This document shows positions 5,599-19,073 of a stretch of 64,000 nt of DNA, in pieces (the stretch's first letter is position 1; every line of letters begins with the position of its first letter). The stretch is from Streptomyces caniferus (lineage in GTDB: Bacteria > Actinomycetota > Actinomycetes > Streptomycetales > Streptomycetaceae): positions 2,303,501 through 2,367,500 of the forward strand of contig NZ_BLIN01000005.1 in assembly GCF_009811555.1 (NCBI RefSeq), given 5' to 3'. The notes beneath the pieces were generated by a model. The model saw nothing but the letters and a program-made list of their open reading frames with translations. It was not told the origin of the DNA and searched no databases. The position numbers and the translations under genes are program-made.

Positions 5599-6771
5599 AT
5601 GAGCGCAGCGCCCTCCCCGCCCGCGGATCCGGGCGTGCCCGCCGCCGCGGACGGCGGGATGCGCGACCGGGCCCGCGGCGCGATGCTCGGGCTGGCCGTC
5701 GGCGATGCGCTCGGCGCCCCGGCGGAGAACATGAAGCCCTCGCAGATCCGGGCCCGCTGGGGCCGGATCGAGGGGTACGTCGAGGACGACCCGGCCGGCA
5801 CCGACGACACCGAGTACGCCATCTTCTCGGGGCTGCTGCTCGCCGGGCACGGTGCGGCGCTGACCGTCGCCCATGTCGAGGCGGCCTGGCACCAGTGGAT
5901 CGCCGACCGCGACGAGGGGCCGTTCCGCGGCGCGGGCTTCAGCGAGCGCGGCACCCTGGAGAACCTCCGCCGGGGCCTGGCCGCCCCGATCTCCGCCCAG
6001 CACCGGCACGCCTGGAGCGACGGGCTGGCGATGCGCGCCGCGCCGTTCGGGGTGTTCGCCGCCGGGCGCCCCGCCGAGGCCGCCCGGCTGGTCGCCATCG
6101 ACGGCACCGTCAGCCACGACGGCGAGGGGATCTACGGCGGCCGGGCGGTGGCCGCCGGGGTCGCCACCGCCATGGTCGCCCTCCCCCAGGGACCGTCGAC
6201 GGTCCCCCGGTCTCCCCTCGGTTCAGGGGGGACACCCCACACCGACGCAGTGATCGCCGCCGCGCTGTCCGTCGTACCGGAGGACTCCTGGACCGCCCGC
6301 TCCCTGCGCCGGGCGGTCGGCGCCGCCCAGCGCTCGCGGTACGACCCGGGCATCACCCAGCTCGGCACCGAGCGCGCGGTGCGCTCGGCGGTCGTGGTGG
6401 GCGGCTACCCCTGGACGGACCTGGCGCCGGAGGCCGTCGGCCTGGCCTTCGGCGCCTTCGCGGCGGCCCGTGGCGACTTCGCCGGCTCGGTGCTGACCGC
6501 GGTCAACATGGGGCGCGACGCCGACACCACGGCGGCCGTGGCCGGCGCGCTGGCCGGTGCGCTCTGCGGCGCCGCCGCGATCCCCGAGGCCTGGGCCGGT
6601 GCCATCGGCCCGGCGCGCGGCAGCTGTCTGCCGTCGATGGCGGGCTACCACGTCCTGGACATCGCGGACCTGCTGACGCCGCGGGCGGCCGCCGGGGCTC
6701 CTGCCGCGGCGGGGCCCGGGGCCGGGCAGGGCCGCGGGGCCGGCTCCGGCGTCGGGGCGGGGACCGGATGA
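5599..6771 (+). CDS. ADP-ribosylglycohydrolase family protein, operon copy 1
   Basis: A 390-residue protein with the ADP-ribosylglycohydrolase (ARH) fold, a dinuclear-Mg hydrolase family that cleaves N- or O-glycosidic bonds to ADP-ribose or related ribosides. Family motifs are present: GAMLGLAVGDALGAPAE at the N-terminus, the metal motif TDDTEYA, and the C-terminal metal motif VNMGRDADTTAAVAGAL. The active site therefore looks complete. Residues encoded at 6181-6240 (LPQGPSTVPRSPLGSGGTPH) are an in-frame 20-residue insert derived from a palindromic repeat. The C-terminus is Gly/Ala-rich. The start (MSAAPSPP) lacks a clear ribosome site and is uncertain. The stop overlaps the next start (ATGA). 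Substrate unknown. Confidence 0.85.
   Translation: MSAAPSPPADPGVPAAADGGMRDRARGAMLGLAVGDALGAPAENMKPSQIRARWGRIEGYVEDDPAGTDDTEYAIFSGLLLAGHGAALTVAHVEAAWHQWIADRDEGPFRGAGFSERGTLENLRRGLAAPISAQHRHAWSDGLAMRAAPFGVFAAGRPAEAARLVAIDGTVSHDGEGIYGGRAVAAGVATAMVALPQGPSTVPRSPLGSGGTPHTDAVIAAALSVVPEDSWTARSLRRAVGAAQRSRYDPGITQLGTERAVRSAVVVGGYPWTDLAPEAVGLAFGAFAAARGDFAGSVLTAVNMGRDADTTAAVAGALAGALCGAAAIPEAWAGAIGPARGSCLPSMAGYHVLDIADLLTPRAAAGAPAAAGPGAGQGRGAGSGVGAGTG
6181..6240 (+). repeat. Palindromic repeat inserted in frame in ARH copy 1
   Basis: Exactly 60 nt, containing the perfect palindrome GGGACCGTCGACGGTCCC and a C-run/G-run pair (TCTCCCC, then GGGGGGACACCCC). It adds 20 residues with no place in the ARH fold without shifting frame. 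It resembles the short G-run/C-run palindromes scattered through Streptomyces genomes and the piece in sdhA at 27424-27453. Confidence 0.6.
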
Positions 6772-8096
6772 GCGGCACACGTGCCGCGCCGGACGCCGCC
6801 CCCGCCCCGGCCGTCCCGCGGGACACCGCCGGGGCCCGCAGCCGTATCGAAGGGCTGCTGCTCGGGCTGGCCGCGGGCGACGCCGCCGGGTGGCCCGCGG
6901 CCCGGCACCGGGCGGCGCGGATGCCGGAGTGGACCCGGCGGCTCACCCGTGAGCTGGACACCTTCGCCGAGCAGAACGCGACCACGACCCTGCCGGTGCC
7001 GATCGCGCTGAACCAGCCGCCCGAACCGCTGCGGCTGGGCCCCTCCGACGACGCCGAGTGGGCCGCCTTCACCGCCGAATCGGTGCTCACCGCGGCCGGT
7101 GCGCTCCTCAGCGATCTGGGCCGGGACCGCCGGATGCGGGCCGCGATCGATCTCGCCTGGAACGCCCTGGCCGGTGAGGTCGCCGCGGCCGCCGACCGGG
7201 CCCCCGAGGTGGAGTCCGCGGTGCTGCCGCTGCGCGCCCGGATCTCGGTACGGGCCGGGCTCGGCAACCTCGCCGCCGGGCTGCGGCCGCCCGCCACCGG
7301 CCACGACAACCCGCACTTCTTCGACGACGCGGCGTGTGTGCGTGCCGCCGTACTGGCCGTGGTGCATCCGGGCGAGCCGTCCGCGGCCGCCGACCTGGCC
7401 GAGTACGACGCGCGCTACACCCAGGACGGCGACGGGGTGCACGGCGCCCGTGCGATGGCCGCCGCGGTCGCGGCCGCGCTGGGCGGTGCGGCGGCCGGCG
7501 GCTGTGTGGAGGCGGCCCTGGAGCAGCTCCCCGAGGGCACCGAGATCCGCCGCAACGCCCTGCACGCGGTCCGTCTCGCCCGGGCCTTCGCCACGGACGG
7601 CAGGGGCCGTTCCGGGCCCCCGGGCACGGCCTTCGCCCTGGTGCCCGTACTGGAGCACGAGATCGTCGACCACGTCTACAGCTACGGCATCGCCGCGGCC
7701 GAGACCGTCCCCGTGGCGCTGGCGCTCGCGCTGGCCACGGACGGGCTGGTCGCCGAGGCGGTACCGGCCGCCGCCTGCCTCTCCCGGGTCGCCGACTCCG
7801 CGCCGGCCCTGGCCGGGGCGCTGACCGGAGTGCTCGGCGGCGCCCACGCCCTGCCCCGCACCTGGCGCGACGCCTGCCGGGTGCTGTCCGGCTGTGCGCT
7901 GCCGCGGCTGGCCGGCACGGACCTCGTCGAGCTGGCCGGGCTGCTCGCCGGTACGGAGCTGACCGCCCCCGAAGCCGCGGGGACGGCTGTTCCCCCGGCC
8001 GTCCCCCCGGCCCTCACGGAAGCCCTCCCGGAAGCCGTCCCGGGTGCCCTGCCGGTCTCCCTCTCCCCCACCGTGGAAGGACTCACCCGCACATGA
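6768..8096 (+). CDS. ADP-ribosylglycohydrolase-like protein, operon copy 2, probable pseudoenzyme
   Basis: A 442-residue ARH-fold paralogue starting MSGTRAAPDA, with a 4-bp overlap to copy 1. The N-terminal motif survives as GLLLGLAAGDAAGWPA, but the first metal motif is changed from TDDT to SDDAEWAAF. At the C-terminal metal motif it reads CLSRVADSAPALAGAL where active members have GRDxDT, so one of the two Asp ligands is Val. It also has extra sequence between the first two motifs and a Pro/Ala-rich tail of about 40 residues. It probably keeps the fold and binds, rather than hydrolyses, a ligand, or acts as a partner of copies 1, 3 or 4. That role is inference. Confidence 0.75.
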   Translation: MSGTRAAPDAAPAPAVPRDTAGARSRIEGLLLGLAAGDAAGWPAARHRAARMPEWTRRLTRELDTFAEQNATTTLPVPIALNQPPEPLRLGPSDDAEWAAFTAESVLTAAGALLSDLGRDRRMRAAIDLAWNALAGEVAAAADRAPEVESAVLPLRARISVRAGLGNLAAGLRPPATGHDNPHFFDDAACVRAAVLAVVHPGEPSAAADLAEYDARYTQDGDGVHGARAMAAAVAAALGGAAAGGCVEAALEQLPEGTEIRRNALHAVRLARAFATDGRGRSGPPGTAFALVPVLEHEIVDHVYSYGIAAAETVPVALALALATDGLVAEAVPAAACLSRVADSAPALAGALTGVLGGAHALPRTWRDACRVLSGCALPRLAGTDLVELAGLLAGTELTAPEAAGTAVPPAVPPALTEALPEAVPGALPVSLSPTVEGLTRT

Positions 8097-9436
8097 CCCA
8101 CGCAAGCGAGCAGACACCGGCCGCGGCGCCGGACGCCCCGGACGCCCCGGACGCCCCGAACGCCTCCGGCGCACAGGCCGACGGGGCCGCCCGGGTCCGG
8201 CCGGCCATCACCGTCGCCCCGGTCGCCACGCCGGCGCCCCCGGGTCCGGTGCCGCCCGTCGTCCCCGCCCCGCCGTCCCTGGAGGACCGGGCGGTCGGCG
8301 CGCTGGTCGGTGCCGCCGTCGGCGACGCGCTCGGCGGGCCCGTCGAGGGCTGGTCGCCGGAGGAGATCGTCAAGCGGCACGGCGGCCGGGTCGGGGGCAT
8401 CGTCGGACCGTTCCACGACGACTGGCGCACCGCCCGCCCGATCGCGCCGTACCACAAGGGCGACGGGCACGTCACCGACGACACCTTGATGACGCATGCG
8501 CTGGTGCGGGTCTACGAAACGGTGCGCGACCACCTCGACGCCTACGACATCGCCGACCACCTCGTACCGGATCTGATCGGCACCCCGCGCTGGATCCCGG
8601 AGCTGGAGACCGAGGCGCTGCCGCTGCAGCGGATCTTCCTCGCCGAGAAGTGGATCGTGGCGCGGCTGCACTACGGGCACGCCGACCCGCGCGAGGCAGG
8701 CGTCGGAAACATCGTCAACTGCGGTGCGGCGATGTACATGGCACCGGTCGGCATCGTCAACGCCGGCAACCCGGACCGGGCGTACGCCGAGGCGCTGGAC
8801 ATCTCCGCCGCCCATCAGTCCTCCTACGGGCGGGAGGCGGCGGGGGTGTTCGCCGCGGCCGTGGCCGCCGCGTTCATGCCGGACGCCACCCCGTCCTCCG
8901 TCGTCGTCCAGGCGCTGCGGCTGGCCAAGGACGGCACCCGCGCCGCGATCGAGGCGGTCTGCGAGGCCGCGGCGACGCTCACCGACCCCGAGTCGGCGCT
9001 GATGCCGCTGCGTGCGGCGATCGCCCCCTTCGACACGGTGGGTCCGGACTACCGCAACCCGTCGCTCGGTGCCCGGCGCCCCTCCCGGCTGCACGCCGTC
9101 GAGGAACTCCCCATCGCCCTGGGCATGGTGCTGATCGGTGGCGGCGACTTCCGGGCCACGGTCCTCGGCGCGGTCAACTACGGCCGCGACTGCGACTCGA
9201 TCGCCACGATGAGCGGCGCGCTCGTCGGCGCGCTGCGGGGGGCGGCGGCGGTGCCGGCCGAGTGGAGCGAGGAGGTCGCCCGCGCCAGCCGGCTCGATCT
9301 GCAGGCGCCCGGGGCGGCGCTGGCGACCGTCGCCCGCGAGGTCTTCACCCGTGACCGGGCCCGCGCCCGCACCCACGAACAGGCCTTCACCGCGATCTCG
9401 GCCATCCCGGCGATGACGGAGGCGGGCGGGCGGTGA
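8093..9436 (+). CDS. ADP-ribosylglycohydrolase family protein, operon copy 3
   Basis: A 447-residue protein. The first ~60 residues are an Ala/Pro/Asp-rich disordered leader with repeated DAP units, followed by a full ARH domain. Motifs: GALVGAAVGDALGGPVEG, HVTDDTLMTHAL (metal), and VNYGRDCDSIATMSGAL (metal). The active site looks intact. A long middle section (HYGHADPREAGVGNIVNCGAAMYM has conserved polar residues) matches the larger ARH subtype often annotated simply as ADP-ribosylglycohydrolase. Its ATG overlaps the stop of copy 2, so the two are translationally coupled. Substrate unknown. Confidence 0.85.
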   Translation: MTHASEQTPAAAPDAPDAPDAPNASGAQADGAARVRPAITVAPVATPAPPGPVPPVVPAPPSLEDRAVGALVGAAVGDALGGPVEGWSPEEIVKRHGGRVGGIVGPFHDDWRTARPIAPYHKGDGHVTDDTLMTHALVRVYETVRDHLDAYDIADHLVPDLIGTPRWIPELETEALPLQRIFLAEKWIVARLHYGHADPREAGVGNIVNCGAAMYMAPVGIVNAGNPDRAYAEALDISAAHQSSYGREAAGVFAAAVAAAFMPDATPSSVVVQALRLAKDGTRAAIEAVCEAAATLTDPESALMPLRAAIAPFDTVGPDYRNPSLGARRPSRLHAVEELPIALGMVLIGGGDFRATVLGAVNYGRDCDSIATMSGALVGALRGAAAVPAEWSEEVARASRLDLQAPGAALATVAREVFTRDRARARTHEQAFTAISAIPAMTEAGGR

Positions 9437-10884
9437 CGACCACGGCGGCCGTCGTCCGGCCCGGTGCCGCCGCACCGCTCCGGGTGACCTGGGTGCAGCC
9501 CGAGGACCTGGTCGGTCATGAGCTGCGGCAGGCGGCGGAGGACGGCCGGGACGCCGCCGGGATCGCGCGGCGGTGGCGGGCCGCGGGCGGGGCGACGGCA
9601 CCCGGCCGGGCGGGCGCCTCCCCCGGCCCCGCGGACCCGGCCCTGCGCACCCTCGCCGGGACACTGCTCGACGAACTCGCGCTGCTGCCCTGCCCGTCGG
9701 AGCGCGACGAGCCCACCGGACTGACGGACATCCAGGCGACCTGGGCGCCGGTGCGCCGCGGTCCCCGGCCGGACGACCGCGCCCTGACCGCCCGGCTGGA
9801 GGCCGCCTGGCTCGGACGGGCGGCCGGCTGTCTGCTCGGCAAGCCGGTCGAGAAGCTGCCGCTGCGCGGTATCCGTGCGCTGGCCCGCTCGACCGGGAAC
9901 TGGCCGCCGTCCGCGTACTTCGGCGAGACCGGCCTCGATCCGGCACTGGCCGCGCGGTACCCGTGGAACCGCCGCAGCCGCGCCACCTCGCTCGCCGGGA
10001 ACATCGACGGCATGCCGGAGGACGACGACCTCAACTACCCGCTGCTCGCGCTGCTGCTCCTCGAACGCCATGGACACGGCTTCACCACCGCCGACGTGGC
10101 GCGGCTGTGGCTGGACACCCTCCCGGCCGGCCGTACCTTCACCGCCGAGCGCCTCGCGTACCGCAACCTCCTGGACGGCATCGAGCCGCCGCACACCGCG
10201 CGCCACCGCAACCCGTTCCGGGAGTGGATCGGCGCGCAGATCCGCGCCGACGTCTTCGGCTGGACCCACCCCGGCGACCCGGTGGCCGCCGCCGCGCAGG
10301 CCTGGCGGGACGCCACCCTCAGCCATACCGCGAACGGGGTGTACGGCGCGATGTTCACGGCCGCCGCGCTCGCCGCGGCGGCCGGCGGCACCGCCGATGT
10401 GCACGGCGCGCTGGAGGCCGGGCTGGCCGTGGTCCCGGCGCGCTCCCGGCTCGCGCGGGCCGTCCGCACCGGTATCGCCGCCGCGCACGACGAGCCCACC
10501 GGTACGCCGGACGGCTTCGCCGCCGTCGTCGACCGGCTGCACACCGCGTACGGGCACCACCACTGGGTGCACGTCGTGCCGAACGCGGCGCTGCTCGCCG
10601 CCGCGCTCACCCATGCCGACGGTGACTTCAGCGGCTCCATCTGCCGTGCGGTGTCCGGCGGTTGGGACACCGACTCCAACGGCGCCACGGCTGGTTCGCT
10701 GGCCGGGCTGCTCGCCGGATCGCCCCGGGCGCTGCCCGCCCGCTGGACGGCACCGCTGCGCAACCGGCTCGCCACCAGCATCGGCGGGCTGGACGGCATC
10801 GGCTTCGACGCCCTCGCGGCCCGTACCGCGGCACTGGCCGTGCCGGACCCCTCACCCGACCGACCGGAGGCATCCGCACCATGA
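9433..10884 (+). CDS. ADP-ribosylglycohydrolase family protein, operon copy 4
   Basis: A 483-residue protein starting at a GTG inside the GTGA overlap with copy 3. An N-terminal section of about 110 residues (LRVTWVQPEDLVGHELRQ) precedes the ARH domain. The domain reads LEAAWLGRAAGCLLGKPVEK, then PEDDDLNYPLLAL in place of TDDT (three Asp kept), and ends with the metal motif SGGWDTDSNGATAGSLAG. This is a divergent subtype from copies 1 and 3, so the four copies are not recent tandem duplicates. Probably active, with a different preference. It is followed by an ATGA overlap to the CoA-transferase gene. Confidence 0.82.
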   Translation: MTTTAAVVRPGAAAPLRVTWVQPEDLVGHELRQAAEDGRDAAGIARRWRAAGGATAPGRAGASPGPADPALRTLAGTLLDELALLPCPSERDEPTGLTDIQATWAPVRRGPRPDDRALTARLEAAWLGRAAGCLLGKPVEKLPLRGIRALARSTGNWPPSAYFGETGLDPALAARYPWNRRSRATSLAGNIDGMPEDDDLNYPLLALLLLERHGHGFTTADVARLWLDTLPAGRTFTAERLAYRNLLDGIEPPHTARHRNPFREWIGAQIRADVFGWTHPGDPVAAAAQAWRDATLSHTANGVYGAMFTAAALAAAAGGTADVHGALEAGLAVVPARSRLARAVRTGIAAAHDEPTGTPDGFAAVVDRLHTAYGHHHWVHVVPNAALLAAALTHADGDFSGSICRAVSGGWDTDSNGATAGSLAGLLAGSPRALPARWTAPLRNRLATSIGGLDGIGFDALAARTAALAVPDPSPDRPEASAP

Positions 10885-12137
10885 CCGATCCGTCCCTGTC
10901 CGGGCGGCCCGAGCCCGGCGCCGGCGGCCGCACCGCCCCCGAGCCCCCCTCCCCCGGTCCGCTCGCCGGGCTGCGGGTGCTCGATCTCGCCACCCTGTTC
11001 GCCGGTCCGCTCGCCGCCACCCTGCTGGGGGACTACGGCGCCGAGGTGATCAAGGTCGAGCATCCGCACCGGCCCGACCCCTCGCGCGGCCACGGCCCCG
11101 CCAAGAACGGCGTCGGCCTGTGGTGGAAGCTGCTGGGCCGCAACAAGAAGACCGTCACGCTCGACCTCTCCCACCCGGACGGCCGGGACGTCCTGCTGCG
11201 GCTGGCCGCCGGCGCGGATGTCGTCGTCGAGAACTTCCGGCCGGGGACCCTGGAGCGGTGGGGGCTGGGCTGGGAGGAGCTGTCGGCCCGCAATCCGGGG
11301 CTGGTGCTGGCCCGGGTCACCGGCTTCGGGCAGTTCGGCCCGTACGCCCGCCGGCCCGGGTTCGGGACCTTGGCCGAGGCGATGAGCGGTTTCGCCGCGA
11401 TCACCGGCGAGCCGGACGGGCCGCCGACCCTGCCGCCGTTCGGCCTCGCCGACGCGATCGCCGCGCTGACCACGTCGTACGCCGTGATGGCCGCGCTGCA
11501 CCGGCGGACGGCCACCGGGCGCGGCCAGGTCATCGACCTGGCGCTGATCGAACCGATGCTGACCGTCCTCGGCCCGCAGCCGCTCTGGTACGACCAGCTC
11601 GGTCACGTCCAGCCGCGGACCGGGAACCGCTCCGCCAATGTCGCGCCGCGCAACACCTACCGCACCGCCGACGGCTCCTGGGTGGCGGTATCCACGTCGG
11701 CCGAGTCGGTCGCCGGGCGGGTGATGCGGCTGGTCGGCCGGCCCGAGGTGATCGACGAGCCCTGGTTCGCGACCGGCGCGGGGCGGGCCCGTCATGCCGA
11801 GGAGCTCGATGGGGCGGTCGCCGGCTGGATCGCCCGGCACGACCGCGCCGAGGTGCTGGCCGCCTTCGAGAAGGCCGAGGCGGCGGTGGCGCCCATCTAC
11901 GACATCCGCGAGGTGATGGCGGATCCGCAGTATCAGGCGCTGGACTCGATCACCGAGGTCCCGGACGAGGAGCTGGGCACCGTCCGGATGCAGAACGTCC
12001 TCTTCCGGCTCTCCGAGACGCCCGGCGGCATCCGGTGGGCGGGGCGCCCGCACGGTGCGGACACGGACGAGGTGCTCGCCGGCATCGGGCTGACCGGTCC
12101 CGAGATCGACGCGCTGCGCGTGGCGGGTGTGCTGTGA
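10881..12137 (+). CDS. Class III (CaiB/BaiF family) CoA-transferase
   Basis: A 418-residue protein of the CaiB/BaiF family, which transfers CoA between carboxylic acids through an acyl-enzyme intermediate. Recognised by LAGLRVLDLATLFAGPLAA, GAEVIKVEHP, VVVENFRPGTLERWGLG and VTGFGQFGPYARRPGFG. At the usual catalytic Asp position (as in MQDAV of formyl-CoA transferase) this protein reads DLALIEPML, which puts Glu there; I recall Glu in related actinobacterial members. The gene starts at an ATGA overlap with ARH copy 4 and ends in a GTGA overlap with the lyase. The pairing suggests that one acid is activated to its CoA ester and then cleaved. Confidence 0.88.
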   Translation: MTDPSLSGRPEPGAGGRTAPEPPSPGPLAGLRVLDLATLFAGPLAATLLGDYGAEVIKVEHPHRPDPSRGHGPAKNGVGLWWKLLGRNKKTVTLDLSHPDGRDVLLRLAAGADVVVENFRPGTLERWGLGWEELSARNPGLVLARVTGFGQFGPYARRPGFGTLAEAMSGFAAITGEPDGPPTLPPFGLADAIAALTTSYAVMAALHRRTATGRGQVIDLALIEPMLTVLGPQPLWYDQLGHVQPRTGNRSANVAPRNTYRTADGSWVAVSTSAESVAGRVMRLVGRPEVIDEPWFATGAGRARHAEELDGAVAGWIARHDRAEVLAAFEKAEAAVAPIYDIREVMADPQYQALDSITEVPDEELGTVRMQNVLFRLSETPGGIRWAGRPHGADTDEVLAGIGLTGPEIDALRVAGVL

Positions 12138-13159
12138 GGCCGGCTCCCCCGACGCCTCGGCCTGCGGCCGCCTCCACCCCGCTGACCTGGCTGTACGTTC
12201 CCGGGGACCGCCCCGAGGTGGTCGCCAAGGCGCTCGGCTGCGGAGCCGATGTGGTCGTGGTCGACCTGGAGGACGCGGTCGCCCCGGACCGCAAGGAACA
12301 CGCGCTGCGCGCGACGGCCGAGCTGCTGGCCGACCCGCGCCCCGGCCGCTCCCCGGTCCATGTGCGCGTCAATGCGCTCGACGGCCCGCTCGCCGAGACC
12401 GAGATCCGCACGCTCGCCGCGCTGCCGGGCCTGGCCGGTCTGCGGCTGCCCAAGGTGCAGAGCCCGGCGGATGTCCAGCGCGCCGCCGACTGGGCGACGA
12501 CGGCGGCCGGGCCCGTCGCACGGCACCTCCGGCACGACGCGGAAGGGGCCGTGCGCCCGGCGGGGCACGCCCTCGCGGGCCGCCTCGCCCCTCCCCCCAC
12601 GGCCACCGGAGCCGGCACCGCCACCCTGGCCCCCGCGGCCGCCGCCCCCACGGCTCTCCCCGCCGCCCCGGCGCTGTACGCCCTGCTCGAATCCGCGCTG
12701 GGCATCGAGCACGCCTTCGCCATCGCCACCGCGCACCCGGCCCTGCGCGGGATCGCCCTCGGTGAGGCCGATCTGTGCGGGGAACTGGGGGTGCGGGACG
12801 ACGCGGGGCTGGCCTGGCCGCGCAGCCGGACCGTGGTCGCCGCCCGCGCGGCCGGGCTGGCCCCGCCGCCGCAGTCGGTCTACCCCGACGTCCACGACCT
12901 GGAGGGGCTGGCCCGGTCCTGCGCGGAGGGCCGGGCGCTGGGGTTCCTGGGCCGGGCGGCGGTCCATCCCCGTCAGCTCCCGGTCATCGAGGCCGCGTAC
13001 CTCCCCTCGGCGGAGGAGATCGCGGCGGCACGGGAGACGGTGCGGGCGGCCACGGCGGAGGGCGGCGGGGCGCTGGCGCTGCCGGACGGCCGGTTCGTGG
13101 ACGCGGCGGTGGTCGCGGGGGCCCGGCGGGTACTGGAGCTGGCCGAACGCCGGCGCTGA
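12134..13159 (+). CDS. CitE-like CoA-ester lyase (HpcH/HpaI aldolase family)
   Basis: A 341-residue protein of the citrate-lyase beta / malyl-CoA / citramalyl-CoA lyase family, which splits 3-hydroxyacyl-CoA esters by Mg-dependent retro-aldol or Claisen cleavage. Recognised by TWLYVPGDRPEVVAKAL, GADVVVVDLEDAVAPDRKEHA, VHVRVNALDG, LLESALGIEHAFAIA and LGEADLCGELGV, and it ends with the family C-terminal pattern GRAAVHPRQLPVI. Between the helix before the active site and LYALLESA it has an extra Ala/Pro-rich stretch of about 45 residues (roughly 125-172) not usual in the family. Last gene of the six-gene operon, with a bidirectional terminator behind it. Exact acyl-CoA unknown. Confidence 0.85.
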   Translation: MRPAPPTPRPAAASTPLTWLYVPGDRPEVVAKALGCGADVVVVDLEDAVAPDRKEHALRATAELLADPRPGRSPVHVRVNALDGPLAETEIRTLAALPGLAGLRLPKVQSPADVQRAADWATTAAGPVARHLRHDAEGAVRPAGHALAGRLAPPPTATGAGTATLAPAAAAPTALPAAPALYALLESALGIEHAFAIATAHPALRGIALGEADLCGELGVRDDAGLAWPRSRTVVAARAAGLAPPPQSVYPDVHDLEGLARSCAEGRALGFLGRAAVHPRQLPVIEAAYLPSAEEIAAARETVRAATAEGGGALALPDGRFVDAAVVAGARRVLELAERRR

Positions 13160-13188: not shown

Positions 13189-13234
13189 CACCGCGCCGGG
13201 CGGACCCGACGTTTCGGGTCCGCCCGGCGCGGTG
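13189..13234. terminator. Bidirectional terminator, ARH operon / lgt
   Basis: A perfect 21-bp stem (13189-13209 with 13214-13234; arm core CGCGCCGGGCGGACCCGA) and a CGTT loop, placed between the converging ends of the CitE-like gene and lgt. No T-run, as is common in Streptomyces. Confidence 0.85.
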
Positions 13235-13251: not shown

Positions 13252-14379
13252 TCAGGACTTCTTGGTGCTGCCGCTTCCGGCGGGCTTGGCGGCGTCCGCC
13301 GCGGGGGCGTCCGCCCCGTCCTCGCCCTTCTCACCGTCGGACGTGTCCTTCGCGGACTCCGCCTCCTTGCCGGACTCGGCCGCCTCGGCGGTGCCGTCGG
13401 CGCCCGCCTCCGCGGCGTCGTCCTGCGACGCTGCCTTCGACGACGGCTTCTCGACCGACACCTTGGCGTCATCGGCGGCGCCGGCGTCAGAGGACTCGGT
13501 GGTCCCGCCGGCACCCTCGGCGCCGTCGGTCCCCTCGCCGTCCTCGTCCCCGGCGGGCTGGGCCCCCGGCTCGACGACGGCTTCCCGGCCGGGTGCCTTC
13601 TTGGCGGAGATCACGAAGTAGCCGACGGCCAGGACGAAGACGATCAGCGCGGTCCAGACGTTGAGCCGCAGGCCGAGGATGTGGTGCGCCTCGTCGACCC
13701 GCATGTACTCGATCCAGGCACGGCCGGCGCAGTAGGCGGCGACGTACAGCGCGAAGGCCCGCCCGTGGCCGAGCCGGAAGCGCTTGTCGGCCCAGATCAC
13801 CAGCGCCGCGACGCCGAGGCACCACAGGCACTCGTAGAGGAAGGTCGGGTGGTAGGTGCCGCCGATGCGTCCGATGGCCGGGTCGGAGCTGATCTTCAGC
13901 GCCCACGGGACGTCGGTCGGCTTGCCGTACAGCTCCTGGTTGAACCAGTTGCCCCAGCGGCCGATCGCCTGCCCGATGGCCAGGCCCGGCGCCAGCGCGT
14001 CGGCGTAGGCCGGGAGCGGGATGCCGCGCCTGCGGCAGCCGATCCAGGCACCCACGGCGCCGAGCGCGACCGCGCCCCAGATGCCGAGGCCGCCCTCCCA
14101 CACCTTGAAGGCGTCGAGCGGGTGGCCGTTCGGGCCGAAGTACGGCTCGTACGTCGTGATGACGTGGTAGAGGCGTCCGCCGACCAGCCCGAAGGGCACG
14201 GCCCATACGGCGATGTCGGCTACGGTGCCGGAGCGGCCACCGCGCGCTACCCAGCGCTTGTTGCCGAGCCAGACGCCGACGAAGACGCCGATGATGATGC
14301 AGAATGCGTAGCCGCGCAGCGGGATCGGGCCGAGATGTACGACGCCGACCGACGGGCTGGGAATGAATGCGAGGTCCAT
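13252..14379 (-). CDS. lgt: Prolipoprotein diacylglyceryl transferase
   Basis: Membrane enzyme that transfers diacylglycerol from phosphatidylglycerol to the lipobox Cys of prolipoproteins, the step before LspA (also in this window). 375 residues, with about seven membrane segments. Family signatures: LRGYAFCIIIGVFVG, VGGRLYHVITTY, GLGIWGAVALGA, GQAIGRWGNWFNQELYG and HPTFLYE. The C-terminal ~90 residues are an acidic, Ala/Glu/Asp-rich disordered tail that is longer than in E. coli Lgt and typical of Streptomyces. The ATG (MDLAFIPSP) fits the normal N-terminus. It lies downstream of the DsbA-like gene on the same strand with a 140-bp gap. Confidence 0.96.
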   Translation of the reverse strand: MDLAFIPSPSVGVVHLGPIPLRGYAFCIIIGVFVGVWLGNKRWVARGGRSGTVADIAVWAVPFGLVGGRLYHVITTYEPYFGPNGHPLDAFKVWEGGLGIWGAVALGAVGAWIGCRRRGIPLPAYADALAPGLAIGQAIGRWGNWFNQELYGKPTDVPWALKISSDPAIGRIGGTYHPTFLYECLWCLGVAALVIWADKRFRLGHGRAFALYVAAYCAGRAWIEYMRVDEAHHILGLRLNVWTALIVFVLAVGYFVISAKKAPGREAVVEPGAQPAGDEDGEGTDGAEGAGGTTESSDAGAADDAKVSVEKPSSKAASQDDAAEAGADGTAEAAESGKEAESAKDTSDGEKGEDGADAPAADAAKPAGSGSTKKS

Positions 14380-14519
14380 GGCAGGGTCGACGCTACCGCG
14401 CCGGGCGGGGTCGGCGACAACCCGCCCGGCAACGGCTGCGTAACGACGCCGCGCTCGGACGATGACGCTGCGTGTCCGGGAGGACGGCAGCGCCACCGGG
14501 GACACCGGGGCGGAACCCG

Positions 14520-15500
14520 CTAGGACCCCGGCGGCACGCTCGTGCCGTTCGGCTTCCCGTGCGCGGAAGGGTTCGTTCCGTTCGGCTTCCCCTCGGTCGA
14601 GGCGCCCGGTCCGTTCTGCTGCTCCCGGGCCGAGGCGCCCGGGCCGGCCGGCCTTCCCCGGGTCGAGGTGCCCGGGTGCGGCGAGGTGCCGGTGTGCGGT
14701 GAGGCGCTCTTCCCGGGCTGCTTGCCCTTGTCGGCGTCCAGCACCATCTTCTTCAGGTCCGCGGGGGTGAACCGGCCGCCCTTCTCCTTGGCGAGGTCCT
14801 TGCCGTTGAGCAGGACGGTCGGGGTGCCGCGGTATCCGGACGTGGCGAAGGCGTCGGTCGACTTCTGCACGAAGCGGTCGTACCTGCCGTCGTTGACGCA
14901 GGTGGTGAAGGCGGGGGTCACCAGCCCCTTGACCTTGCCGGCCAGTTGGAGGAGGTACTGCTTGTCGGCGAACTTGTCCTGCGTCTCGGGCGGCTGGTGG
15001 GAGTAGAGGACGTCGTGGTACGCGCGGAACTTCCCCGCGTCCTGGGCGCACAGGGCGGCGTTGGCGGCGTTGAGCGATCCCTTGCCGCCGGCGTTCCCGT
15101 CGATGATCGTCACGAGGTGGTACTCGCTCCTGAGCCGGCCGGAGTCCTCCAGCTCATGGACGACCGGACGGAAGGCGGTCTCGAACTGCTGGCAGGCGGG
15201 GCAGCGGAAGTCCTCCCACACGGTGAGTGTGGAGGGGGCGTTCGGCGCACCGACGGGAATGGCGGGTCTGCTGCCGCCGCTGGCCTGTTTCGGGCGGGCG
15301 GTTTCGTTGTCGGAGCTGCTCTTGCCGCCGCCGGACGAGGTCGCCCAGATGGCGATGCCGCCGGCGACCGCCAGCACCGCCAGCACCGATCCGGCGGCCA
15401 CGGCCTGCCGGCGGCGCCGGGCGCGCGTCCGCTCCTTTTCCCGCTGTTCCTGCATCCGCTCGCGGGCGGTTCTCTTACCCTCATGGTTCTTCTGGCTCAC
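14520..15500 (-). CDS. DsbA-family membrane-anchored thioredoxin-fold protein
   Basis: A 326-residue predicted thiol-disulfide oxidoreductase facing outward. A basic N-terminus (MSQKNHEGKRTARERMQEQ, then an Arg-rich run) leads into one membrane anchor (AVAAGSVLAVLAVAGGIAIW). The DsbA-like domain follows, with the redox motif CPAC in FRCPACQQFE, preceded by the usual LTVWEDF, and the cis-Pro region YRGTPTVLLNG. The last ~60 residues are a Gly/Pro/Thr/Ser-rich tail. The GTG start was chosen because it gives the same short basic leader as the two related proteins at 49932 and 51661. It is separated from trpA by a terminator, so it probably has its own promoter and may be cotranscribed with lgt. 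Confidence 0.85.
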   Translation of the reverse strand: MSQKNHEGKRTARERMQEQREKERTRARRRRQAVAAGSVLAVLAVAGGIAIWATSSGGGKSSSDNETARPKQASGGSRPAIPVGAPNAPSTLTVWEDFRCPACQQFETAFRPVVHELEDSGRLRSEYHLVTIIDGNAGGKGSLNAANAALCAQDAGKFRAYHDVLYSHQPPETQDKFADKQYLLQLAGKVKGLVTPAFTTCVNDGRYDRFVQKSTDAFATSGYRGTPTVLLNGKDLAKEKGGRFTPADLKKMVLDADKGKQPGKSASPHTGTSPHPGTSTRGRPAGPGASAREQQNGPGASTEGKPNGTNPSAHGKPNGTSVPPGS

Positions 15501-15516
15501 GCCCCTGGACAACGAA

Positions 15517-15544
15517 GCGGAGGGGTGCCGTCGCACCCCTCCGC
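15517..15544. terminator. Terminator of the trp operon
   Basis: GCGGAGGGGTGC and GCACCCCTCCGC form a perfect 12-bp stem with a CGTC loop, about 70 bp beyond the trpA stop. Confidence 0.8.
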
Positions 15545-15613
15545 ACCGATGTTCGCCCTATCGAGGGACAGCCGCCGGGCCCGACTGCCCGGGGCCCGGC
15601 CGCACGGATCCGC

Positions 15614-16428
15614 TCAGGTCCGCTTGCGCACGCCCTCGGCCAGCTCGGCCGCCAGGCCGCGGATCCCGTCGAGACCGTCCGCCAGATCGCCGTCGGCCGC
15701 CAGCATCCGCTTGACGAACGCCGAGCCGACGATCACACCGTCCGCGAACTGCGCCACCTCGGCGGCCTGTTCGGGGTTGGAGACGCCGAGGCCGACGCAG
15801 ACCGGCAGGCCGGTGGTCGCCTTGGTGCGCCGTACGAGGTCCTGCGCCTGCGCGCCCACCGACTCGCGGGTGCCCGTGACACCCATCAGCGAAGCGGCGT
15901 AGACGAAGCCGGAGCCGGCCGCCGTGATCTCGGCGAGCCGTGCGTCCTTGCTGCTGGGGGCGACGACGAAGACGGTGGCGAGGCCGTGCTTGTCGGCGTG
16001 CTCCCGCCAGGTCGCGGACTCCTGGACCGGCAGGTCGGGCAGGATGCAGCCGGCGCCGCCCGCCTCGGCCAGCTCGGCGGTGAACCGCTCGATGCCGTAG
16101 CGGTCGATCGGGTTCCAGTACGTCATGACGAGGACGGGCTTGCCGGTGGCCTCGTGGGCCTCGCGGACCGTCCGCATCACGTCCGCGATCTTCACTCCGC
16201 CGCGCAGGGCGATGTCGTCGGCGGTCTGGATGACGGGGCCGTCCAGGACCGGGTCGCTGTGCGGCAGCCCGATCTCCACGACGTCCGCGCCGCCCTCGAA
16301 GACGGCCTTGGCCGCCTCGATGCCGCCGTCGACGGTCGGGAACCCGGCCGGCAGGTAGGCGATCAGGGCCGACCGGCCCTCGGCCTTCGCGGCGGCGAGG
16401 GTGTCGCCCAACAGCTTGATGTTCCCGC

Positions 16429-16432
<4 letters not shown>
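15614..16432 (-). CDS. trpA: Tryptophan synthase alpha chain
   Basis: Cleaves indole-3-glycerol phosphate to indole and glyceraldehyde 3-phosphate; the indole passes by tunnel to TrpB. 272 residues, a normal length for the TIM-barrel family. The catalytic pair is visible as Glu53 ([10 protein letters not shown]) and Asp64 (VLDGP). The phosphate-binding loop [13 protein letters not shown] and [10 protein letters not shown] are present. The ATG overlaps the trpB stop by 4 bp, so the two subunits are coupled. A strong hairpin after the gene ends the operon. Confidence 0.98.
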
Positions 16433-17715
<1,283 letters not shown>

Positions 17716-17953
17716 CAGACGCACTCCTAGGCCGGGGCGGCTGCCCCGGAAGTCCGGTTGTGTCGGAGACATGCGGGATCGGGCAACACGGTATGGGGCG
17801 CGCGGTGCGGGTGCCGCCACCACGGAAACGGCAGGAACCGGTTCCGCGGACGGTCGGGTGCGGACCGGCGGTCGTCGGGAAGGACGCCGCCGGCCGGCGG
17901 TCAGCGGACCGCCGTGGCCCGAAGCGGCCCGGCGCCGGAACGGGGCCGACGCG

Positions 17954-18238
17954 TCAGCGCGCGGACCCCGGTCGCCATCGCCTGCCGTTGATCTGTCCCG
18001 GCTCGGATCCGATGTGGTACCTGACCCTGCGTCCGTGGACCCGTCGCGCGGGCGCCCGGCAGCCTCGGTGCCACGGGGGCAGCGCACAGCGCTGCGGGGC
18101 GGGGCTGCGGTGGGCGGCGCAGACGCCGCGGACCGGCGCCGGGCCCACGTGGGTGGCCGCCGCCGCGGTACGCACACCGGCCGGGCCCGGGTACGGAACC
18201 CGGACCTGGCAGCGGCTGTCTGCGGCGGTGGCGCTCAT
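17954..18238 (-). CDS. trpM: TrpM-like tryptophan biosynthesis modulator
   Basis: A small basic protein between trpC and trpB. In Streptomyces coelicolor the product at this position (TrpM) was described as modulating tryptophan synthesis and development. The C-terminal half is what I recognise: [20 protein letters not shown] followed by [12 protein letters not shown]. The reading frame opens with an ATG 25 bp after the trpC stop, giving 94 residues. An internal GTG at 18148 would give 64 residues, close to the length I remember for TrpM, so the start is uncertain. It is very Arg/Pro/Cys-rich (five Cys in the long form). No catalytic motif is visible; role taken from position and family. Confidence 0.7.
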
Positions 18239-18263
18239 GTCGGTGTGTGCCGTCCCCGGGCGC

Positions 18264-19073
18264 TCAGGACCGGCCGTGCCGGATCGCCGGGTGGGAGCCC
18301 GCTGCGACCAGGTCGGCGACCGCGGTCCTGGGGTCCTTGCCGGTCACCAGCGACTCGCCGACCAGCACCGCGTCCGCGCCGTCGTTGGCGTACGCGATCA
18401 GGTCGTGCGGGCCGCGCACCCCGGACTCGGCGATCTTGACGATGTGGTCGGGGATCTCGGGGGCGACCCGGGCGAAGTTCCCGCGGTCGACCTCCAGGGT
18501 CTTCAGGTTGCGGGCGTTGACGCCGATGATCTTGGCGCCGGCGTCCACCGCGCGGGCGACCTCTTCCTCGTCGTGCACCTCGACCAGCGGCGTCAGCCCG
18601 ATCGACTCGGCGCGCTCGATCAGCGAGACCAGCGCCTCCTGCTCCAGCGCGGAGACGATCAGCAGCGCGAGGTCGGCGCCGTAGGCACGGGCCTCCCACA
18701 GCTGGTAGGCGGTGACGATGAAGTCCTTGCGCAGGACGGGGATGTCGACCTTGGCGCGGACGGCCTCCAGGTCGGCCAGCGAACCGCCGAACCGGCGCTG
18801 TTCGGTCAGCACGGAGATGACCGCCGCGCCGCCCGCCTCGTAGTCGGCGGCCAGGCCGGCCGGGTCGGCGATCGCGGCGAGCGCGCCCTTGGAGGGGCTG
18901 GAGCGCTTGACCTCGCAGATCACCGTGACGCTCTCGCCCTTCAGCGCCGCGACGCCGTCCTTGGCGGGGCGCGCCTTCTGGGCCCGCTCCTTGAGCTCGT
19001 CGAGGCCGACGCGCGCCTGCCGCTCTGCGAGGTCGGCGCGGACGCCGTCGATGATCTCGTCGAGCACACTCAC
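18264..19073 (-). CDS. trpC: Indole-3-glycerol phosphate synthase
   Basis: Closes the indole ring: CdRP to indole-3-glycerol phosphate with loss of CO2 and water. 269 residues, a single-domain TIM barrel without a fused TrpF; the isomerase step is supplied by PriA (30816). Signatures: [13 protein letters not shown] (catalytic Glu and Lys), VLRKDFIV, GINxRNL-type [12 protein letters not shown], and AESGVRG. The GTG start ([10 protein letters not shown]) has an excellent AAGGAGG about 8 nt upstream, better than the upstream in-frame alternatives. Followed at 25 bp by trpM. Confidence 0.97.

Follow-up and report, generated by a model that had tools for sequence, protein, structure and literature searches.

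A candidate carbohydrate-catabolic operon of four ADP-ribosylglycohydrolase-fold proteins, a CoA-transferase and a CitE-like lyase in Streptomyces caniferus

The stretch of the 9.15-Mb Streptomyces caniferus genome analyzed here (64,000 nucleotides, hereafter the window) contains an operon of six plus-strand genes (5599-13159) that encode four ADP-ribosylglycohydrolase (ARH)-fold proteins, a coenzyme A (CoA)-transferase family III fold protein and a CitE/RipC/Rv2498c-like 3-hydroxyacyl-CoA lyase. The genes lie in the order ARH1 (5599-6771, 390 aa), ARH2 (6768-8096, 442 aa), ARH3 (8093-9436, 447 aa), ARH4 (9433-10884, 483 aa), CoA-transferase (10881-12137, 418 aa) and lyase (12134-13159, 341 aa). 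All six yield full translations with no internal stops, and the five junctions are 4-bp overlaps (ATGA, ATGA, GTGA, ATGA and GTGA), exactly as the original prediction for this DNA had described. A perfect 21-bp inverted repeat (13189-13234), which starts 29 bp past the lyase stop codon and lies between the operon and a convergent lgt-like gene, is probably the terminator of the operon. The closest named relative seen, S. nigrescens HEK616 (locus L138), matches the window at 90% for ARH1 and 92% for ARH3. The repeat, a degenerate site in ARH2 and a kinase gene missing from the window version of the locus, both described below, are additions to that prediction.

The predicted protein families were recovered by Pfam: all four ARH proteins match PF03747 (ADP_ribosyl_GH; 114.6-185 bits against a cut-off of 26.2; E 9e-33 to 3e-54), gene 5 matches PF02515 (CoA_transf_3; 419.5 bits against a cut-off of 23.3) and gene 6 matches PF03328 (HpcH_HpaI; 111 bits). 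No NCBIfam model was matched at its cut-off by any of the six proteins. The ARH proteins are ~29-35% identical in their longest pairwise matches, which bears out the claim that they are not recent copies of one another, and they are old paralogues. ARH enzymes, according to a review section on the family, have a binuclear metal centre and a flap Glu and make use of the cis hydroxyls of ribose. Locating these residues by motif rather than from structure, we found that the motif residues and flap Glu of ARH1 do not vary among the 47 sequences aligned, except that one position holds either Thr or Ser, and that the metal motifs ([ST]DD and DxD[ST]) and flap Glu of ARH3 are invariant in all of the 106-107 sequences aligned. 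ARH4, which has an N-terminal extension, keeps the flap Glu and DTDS (within GWDTDS) but has EDDD (within PEDDD) in place of [ST]DD; EDDD and DTDS are invariant in 101-102 sequences, and the predicted ARH4 model (mean predicted local distance difference test score, pLDDT, 86) matches the DraG and ARH3 structures. By their motifs, ARH1, ARH3 and, with its variant site, ARH4 are apparently active enzymes.

ARH2 differs from the other three in that its metal site is degenerate. The flap Glu is absent in 46 of 46 aligned sequences and the first Asp of DxD in 48 of 48, and the other Asp positions are each retained in 43 of 48. The ARH1 and ARH2 genes are adjacent in every locus that has both (50/50), and the three loci with ARH2 and no ARH1 are each cut by the end of a contig or of the stretch examined. 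Because ARH2 has lost these residues and yet always adjoins ARH1, the two proteins probably form a pair composed of an active enzyme and a non-catalytic partner. The original prediction had also considered a multi-subunit ARH complex; given the constant adjacency, that option survives for this pair alone.

To determine how widely the operon genes occur together, we surveyed 246 genomes drawn from the class Actinomycetes (counts over loci, here and below, may hold one species twice, as the two genome sets used were not compared). The ARH2 query matched 48 genomes at E ≤ 0.001, a count that also takes in general ARH matches. The ARH3 query matched 43 genomes, and its weakest match had an E value of 3.4e-140 despite a limit of 1e-30, indicating that the ARH3 orthologues form a sharply delimited group. 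The lyase query matched 48 genomes at E ≤ 1e-25, six of them without ARH3; of the 43 genomes with ARH3, 40 have the lyase match within 12 kb of it. Among the three exceptions, genome G168 has a weaker lyase match inside the cluster (L048, L064); the contig of G131 ends ~400 bp from ARH3; and G121 has ARH1 to ARH4 (L044) with no CoA-transferase or lyase gene in the 1.9 kb of contig that remains beyond ARH4, and a separate CoA-transferase/lyase pair elsewhere (L057). In a search of the phylum, 8 genomes of 296 had ARH3, each from the genus of the window; no count was made of how many of the 296 belong to other classes.

We also scanned genome contigs with an alignment of ARH3 and obtained at least 593 confirmed matches, from which we kept the best 80 by similarity to a non-Streptomyces sequence, all of them actinobacterial. 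Full context, defined as at least 7 kb before and at least 9 kb after ARH3, was available for 66 of these 80 loci; the other 14 were left out, and genes were counted by tblastn. ARH3, the CoA-transferase and the lyase are clustered in all 66 loci, ARH4 is present in 65, and ARH1 and ARH2 are present in 20. The block is conserved across actinobacterial families, and the co-occurrence outside this species on which the original prediction had staked its case is found throughout the loci with full context.

In most of these loci the block is accompanied by genes for sugar uptake. A LacI-type repressor gene, two permease genes and a binding-protein gene are present in 56 of the 66 loci and precede ARH3 in that order in 56 of 56; the CoA-transferase gene follows ARH3 in 52 of them and precedes the regulator in 4. 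For one locus, L040, gene identities come from Pfam and NCBIfam; they were carried to the other loci by BLAST. The L040 repressor, permeases and binding protein all match sugar families, and the best NCBIfam model for the repressor is RbsR, below its cut-off. A gene encoding a PfkB (ribokinase-like) kinase is present in 46 of the 66 loci, directly after ARH4 in 42 of the 46, and a gene for a glycosidase-like protein is present in 47; in L060 the kinase is fused to this protein. The N-terminal part of the glycosidase-like protein has no Pfam match, and its structure model (mean pLDDT 82) resembles TIM-barrel glycosidases (a GH129 enzyme, amylases and fucosidases) at E ~1e-9 with low whole-protein template modelling scores (~0.3-0.35), while the C-terminal part resembles formylglycine-generating-enzyme/EgtB folds. 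Genes for LacI, the transporter, ARH1 to ARH4, the CoA-transferase and the lyase are all found together in four loci from Streptomyces and Streptantibioticus (L119, L125, L129 and L148).

We also considered whether the glycosidase-like protein and the ARH1/ARH2 pair exclude each other, since 46 loci have only the former, 19 only the latter, one has both and none has neither. Ten loci of one family that carry both contradict strict exclusion, and we therefore regard the two as overlapping modules. A second type of cluster without ARH3 combines LacI-, permease- and binding-protein-like genes with an ARH1-like/ARH2-like pair (L043 2877-11527, L047 7959-14357 and L049 412-6833), and the one in L043 also has kinase- and ARH4-like genes.

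Based on gene context, carbohydrate uptake and catabolism is a well supported frame for the operon, and we consider it likely that the operon provides the catabolic side of a locus with which actinobacteria take up a carbohydrate, namely an acid-bearing furanoside. The original prediction had proposed release of an organic acid from either an ADP-ribose or a riboside conjugate. Because sugar-uptake genes accompany the block in relatives, the riboside option is favored; the transporter, LacI repressor, kinase, glycosidase-like protein and esterase of those relatives all point to it. The ADP-ribose option and ADP-ribosylation signaling are not favored, as, of the 77 families that Pfam found in 84 same-strand neighbors (chosen from 190 unlabeled genes in or near clusters), the 25 listed include no Nudix, macro or ADP-ribosyltransferase family, and two residues specific to DraG are missing from ARH1. 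The NCBIfam DraG model scores 71.2 bits against ARH1, short of its cut-off of 337.05, and, by one low-scoring pairwise alignment, the equivalent of DraG Asp97 is present in none of 47 ARH1 sequences and the position of the adenine-contacting Glu121 is Gly or Ala in 47 of 47.

These observations also bear on a rival explanation in which the ARH proteins act as erasers that reverse the ADP-ribosylation of protein, DNA or RNA, or else hydrolyze ADP-ribose or O-acyl-ADP-ribose, with the acyl part recycled by the CoA-transferase and lyase. That explanation rests on the family name and fold, on the binuclear metal motifs kept in ARH1 and ARH3 and in variant form in ARH4, and on a single macro-domain fragment, the only hint of ADP-ribose that we saw in a cluster. 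It also draws on S. coelicolor, for which two papers list SCO2028-SCO2031 (one of them only SCO2028-SCO2030) as uncharacterized DraG/ARH homologues. These genes are probable orthologues of the window ARH genes, judging by their number and their place near the trp genes (SCO2038 lies in the trp locus) rather than by alignment. In a published assay with one substrate, however, SCO2028 and SCO2030 had no activity on uracil-ADP-ribose. The genomic context, with a sugar ABC (ATP-binding cassette) importer, a LacI repressor and a kinase, also weighs against this explanation, as do the substitutions at the Asp97 and Glu121 positions in ARH1. We therefore regard the eraser explanation as improbable. 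Another genome of the genus, which has no such cluster, carries a full macro-domain gene (L070 13092-13634) at ~3 kb from a gene resembling ARH4 (49%).

The identity of the sugar is suggested by the kinase together with ARH chemistry, which make it probably ribose. TIGR02152 (ribokinase) is the best model for all five kinases profiled, and those of L040 (309.5 bits) and L061 (312.1) pass its cut-off of 299.65. Characterized ARH enzymes, according to the review section cited above, require the cis 2''- and 3''-OH of ribose. Both points argue against a different furanose, such as the apiose or arabinofuranose of plant glycosides, which would leave the model otherwise unchanged and which we consider unlikely, even though several features of the relatives fit it. 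Three of the five kinases fall below the ribokinase cut-off, an arabino-oligosaccharide binder is among the many sugar binders that are PDB relatives of the transporter binding protein, and one of the 84 neighbors is a GH127 arabinofuranosidase-like protein. In addition, the closest solved structures to the one in-operon esterase compared include ferulic acid esterases. Esterase genes of family PF00756 accompany the cluster in 15 of the 66 loci, separated by 6-464 bp from one of its genes, and are divergent from the repressor gene in six loci of one family; esterases make up 15 of the 84 neighbors, and no other family exceeds three apart from the overlapping Hydrolase_4 model. Large esterases of 768 and 788 aa follow the lyase in L073 (17834-20140) and L101 (17613-19979), and the one in L073 has a beta-propeller (SBBP) repeat.

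The CoA-transferase and lyase would form the acid arm of the pathway. In the CoA-transferase, the column of the class III catalytic Asp, assigned from the motif rather than from structure, holds Gly, followed four residues on by an invariant Glu, in 99 of 99 cluster sequences. That Asp is Asp165 of Mct and Asp173 of YfdE, and it is present in all six of the other near-full-length family matches of the genome (five partial matches were left out). Eight stand-alone relatives that we aligned have the same Gly and Glu, which therefore mark a subgroup of CoA-transferases rather than decay. In the lyase, the Glu of LLES and the Asp of GEAD are present in 98 of 98 aligned sequences and would correspond to the metal ligands Glu112 and Asp138 of Rv2498c, an enzyme that cleaves (R)-hydroxymethylglutaryl-CoA and (S)-citramalyl-CoA (PMC6689899). 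The window lyase also has an Ala/Pro-rich stretch at about residues 125-180, owing to which it is longer, at 341 aa, than most of its called relatives. The CoA-transferase and lyase are the only recurrent acid-arm enzymes, with no hydratase or dehydrogenase among the recurrent cluster genes, and the acid is therefore probably already a 3-hydroxy dicarboxylate. As malate would hardly require a CoA-transferase/lyase route, we leave a citramalate- or hydroxymethylglutarate-like acid as a guess.

The pair also occurs without ARH genes, indicating that it is a portable acid module. In L051 (10097-12153), L057 (8415-10477) and L058 (7995-10051) it lies beside a permease of the tripartite ATP-independent periplasmic (TRAP) type (DctM-like), with genes that look GntR-like nearby, and in L052 (9757-11861), L053 (9764-11808) and L054 (7711-9767) it lies in other clusters, in which its native acid may be revealed; the one profiled, L052, contains cyclase, MmgE/PrpD and amidohydrolase genes and further genes. 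Such arrangements, together with the ARH cluster of G121, which has no pair on its stretch and a stand-alone pair elsewhere, would fit a scheme in which the CoA-transferase and lyase act on a separate acid that is unrelated to the glycoside and merely co-regulated with it. In 66 of 66 full-context loci, however, the pair is kept with ARH3, in many different genera and in either of two arrangements of the genes, and we find a separate acid less probable than either of the alternatives above.

We therefore propose the following scheme for uptake and catabolism of an acid-bearing furanoside. In the complete locus, the LacI-type repressor would control a sugar ABC importer that takes up a glycoside of ribose, or of a similar furanose, bearing an organic acid that is at least sometimes attached as an ester. 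ARH3 and ARH4 would hydrolyze glycosidic bonds by means of a binuclear metal site, joined by the TIM-barrel glycosidase-like protein, by the ARH1-ARH2 pair or, in some loci, by both, with ARH2 as a non-catalytic or altered partner of ARH1. The ribokinase-like enzyme would phosphorylate the released sugar, and the esterase, where present, would free the acid (citramalate or hydroxymethylglutarate, for example), which the CoA-transferase-fold protein would load with CoA and the CitE-like lyase would split into acetyl-CoA and a keto acid. Gene content, co-conservation, motifs and folds are observed; the substrates, reactions and direction of flow are what we infer from them. That these parts together make up an undescribed pathway of Actinomycetes, in which ARH-fold proteins are true glycosidases, an obligate pair of active ARH1 and pseudo-enzyme ARH2 acts on an imported furanoside with a 3-hydroxy dicarboxylic acid, and a CoA-transferase with an unusual nucleophile feeds a CitE-type lyase, is a more tentative proposal, to which we give a little less than an even chance. 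If it is correct, the ARH fold gains a catabolic (nutritional) role, and many bacterial ‘ADP-ribosylglycohydrolases’ are nutrient glycosidases with no link to ADP-ribosylation. This role can be tested directly at the locus, where a single binding protein, a single kinase and the three ARH proteins that appear active should reveal the substrate. The locus also provides a conserved pairing of an enzyme with a pseudo-enzyme and a group of CoA-transferases in which the usual catalytic Asp is missing.

Several observations weigh against this scheme. Genes for a transporter, a LacI repressor and a kinase are missing from the window operon, and the window genome has no close LacI (the best-scoring match is at 36%, and the highest identity listed is 40%). 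The apparent lack of the class III catalytic Asp in the CoA-transferase is a real weakness, and the lyase falls far below the specific NCBIfam cut-offs (143.7 against 375 bits for RipC and 134.3 against 443.4 for citrate lyase beta). Ribokinase-family enzymes accept other sugars, so ribose is unproven, and the kinases of L125, L101 and L123 score below the TIGR02152 cut-off, while none of the five reaches that of a second ribokinase model, NF008353. The esterase is present in only 15 of the 66 loci, and the macro-domain fragment (25.8 bits against a cut-off of 22) follows the lyase in L040 (17756-17995). Finally, among 81 genomes of the genus the association between the permease homologue and ARH3 is weak, with 43 having both, 15 only ARH3, 12 only the permease and 11 neither (Fisher p = 0.069).

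The missing genes suggest that the window operon is a reduced version of the locus. Ten of the 66 loci have no transporter, nine from Streptomyces and one from [Kitasatospora] papulosa, with flanking genes of the same sizes as in the window. A kinase gene lies between the ARH4 and CoA-transferase genes in all seven of the other same-genus loci that we read (L061-L063 and L066-L069, which represent seven of 17 further genomes of the genus that have ARH3); it is absent at this position in the window and in six of the ten transporter-less loci. Elsewhere in the window genome, a PfkB kinase at 48% lies in an apparent ribose operon (the other genes there were not profiled), and another contig carries two permease genes and a binding-protein gene as a unit, their products matching the transporter of L125, a complete cluster of Streptomyces sp. 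NRRL F-5123, at 73, 69 and 56%. In a same-genus genome without an ARH3 match (L175), such a transporter alone occupies the position that is flanked by lgt- and VIT/gltB-like genes. A transporter partnership in trans is plausible. As a strict partner of ARH3 we rejected the transporter, the association in the 81 genomes not being significant, and the unlinked unit has recurring neighbors of its own in seven further loci (L176-L182).

The proposed locus shares features with several known systems. It has the fold of the DraG, ARH1 and ARH3 (ADP-ribosyl)hydrolases and their binuclear metal motifs in the operon ARH1 and ARH3, with a variant in ARH4; it differs from them in its carbohydrate-uptake context, in an ARH1 without Asp97 and Glu121 equivalents and in the degenerate ARH2 site. 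Some Bacteroides ribose-utilization (rus) loci reportedly include ARH-like genes, and these loci are said to combine ribokinases, hydrolases and riboside transport, the last by TonB-type uptake, unlike the locus described here; we know of no CoA-transferase/lyase pair in them. E. coli yegTUV combines an ARH gene with a putative sugar kinase and a nucleoside/base-type permease (PMC10819704), and a staphylococcal unit combines one with a ribokinase and a permease (PMC3637587). Both, in the accessible portions of these papers, differ from our locus in having a single ARH, another transporter class and no named CoA-transferase/lyase arm. Rv2498c (PMC6689899) and RipC (NCBIfam) have matching metal motifs and yield acetyl-CoA and a keto acid, as proposed here, whereas our operon has no hydratase, a lyase below the RipC cut-off and a partner CoA-transferase with Gly for the catalytic Asp. 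A literature search, with most subscription papers outside its reach, found the S. coelicolor ARH proteins and no account of the locus or of its CoA-transferase and lyase genes.

A scan for sigma-70-like promoters, which is uninformative for Streptomyces, found none against 0.2 expected. Downstream of the operon, the window has minus-strand lgt-, dsbA-, trpA-, trpB- and trpC-like genes (13252-19067), and the same lgt/dsbA/trp-like neighborhood is found in all seven same-genus loci read; these names, like VIT and gltB above, are ones we presume from the look of the sequences, with no profile behind them. We set aside a defense or mobile-element reading of the operon, as the window has no tRNA or Rfam match and the operon occupies a conserved slot beside the trp-like genes, although no dedicated scan for defense genes was made. 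Elsewhere in the genome (G000), four ARH-family matches with equal scores lie near contig ends (C1:462316, C1:473773, C2:5217 and C8:5276) and probably represent a single gene present more than once, in terminal repeats or duplicated ends.

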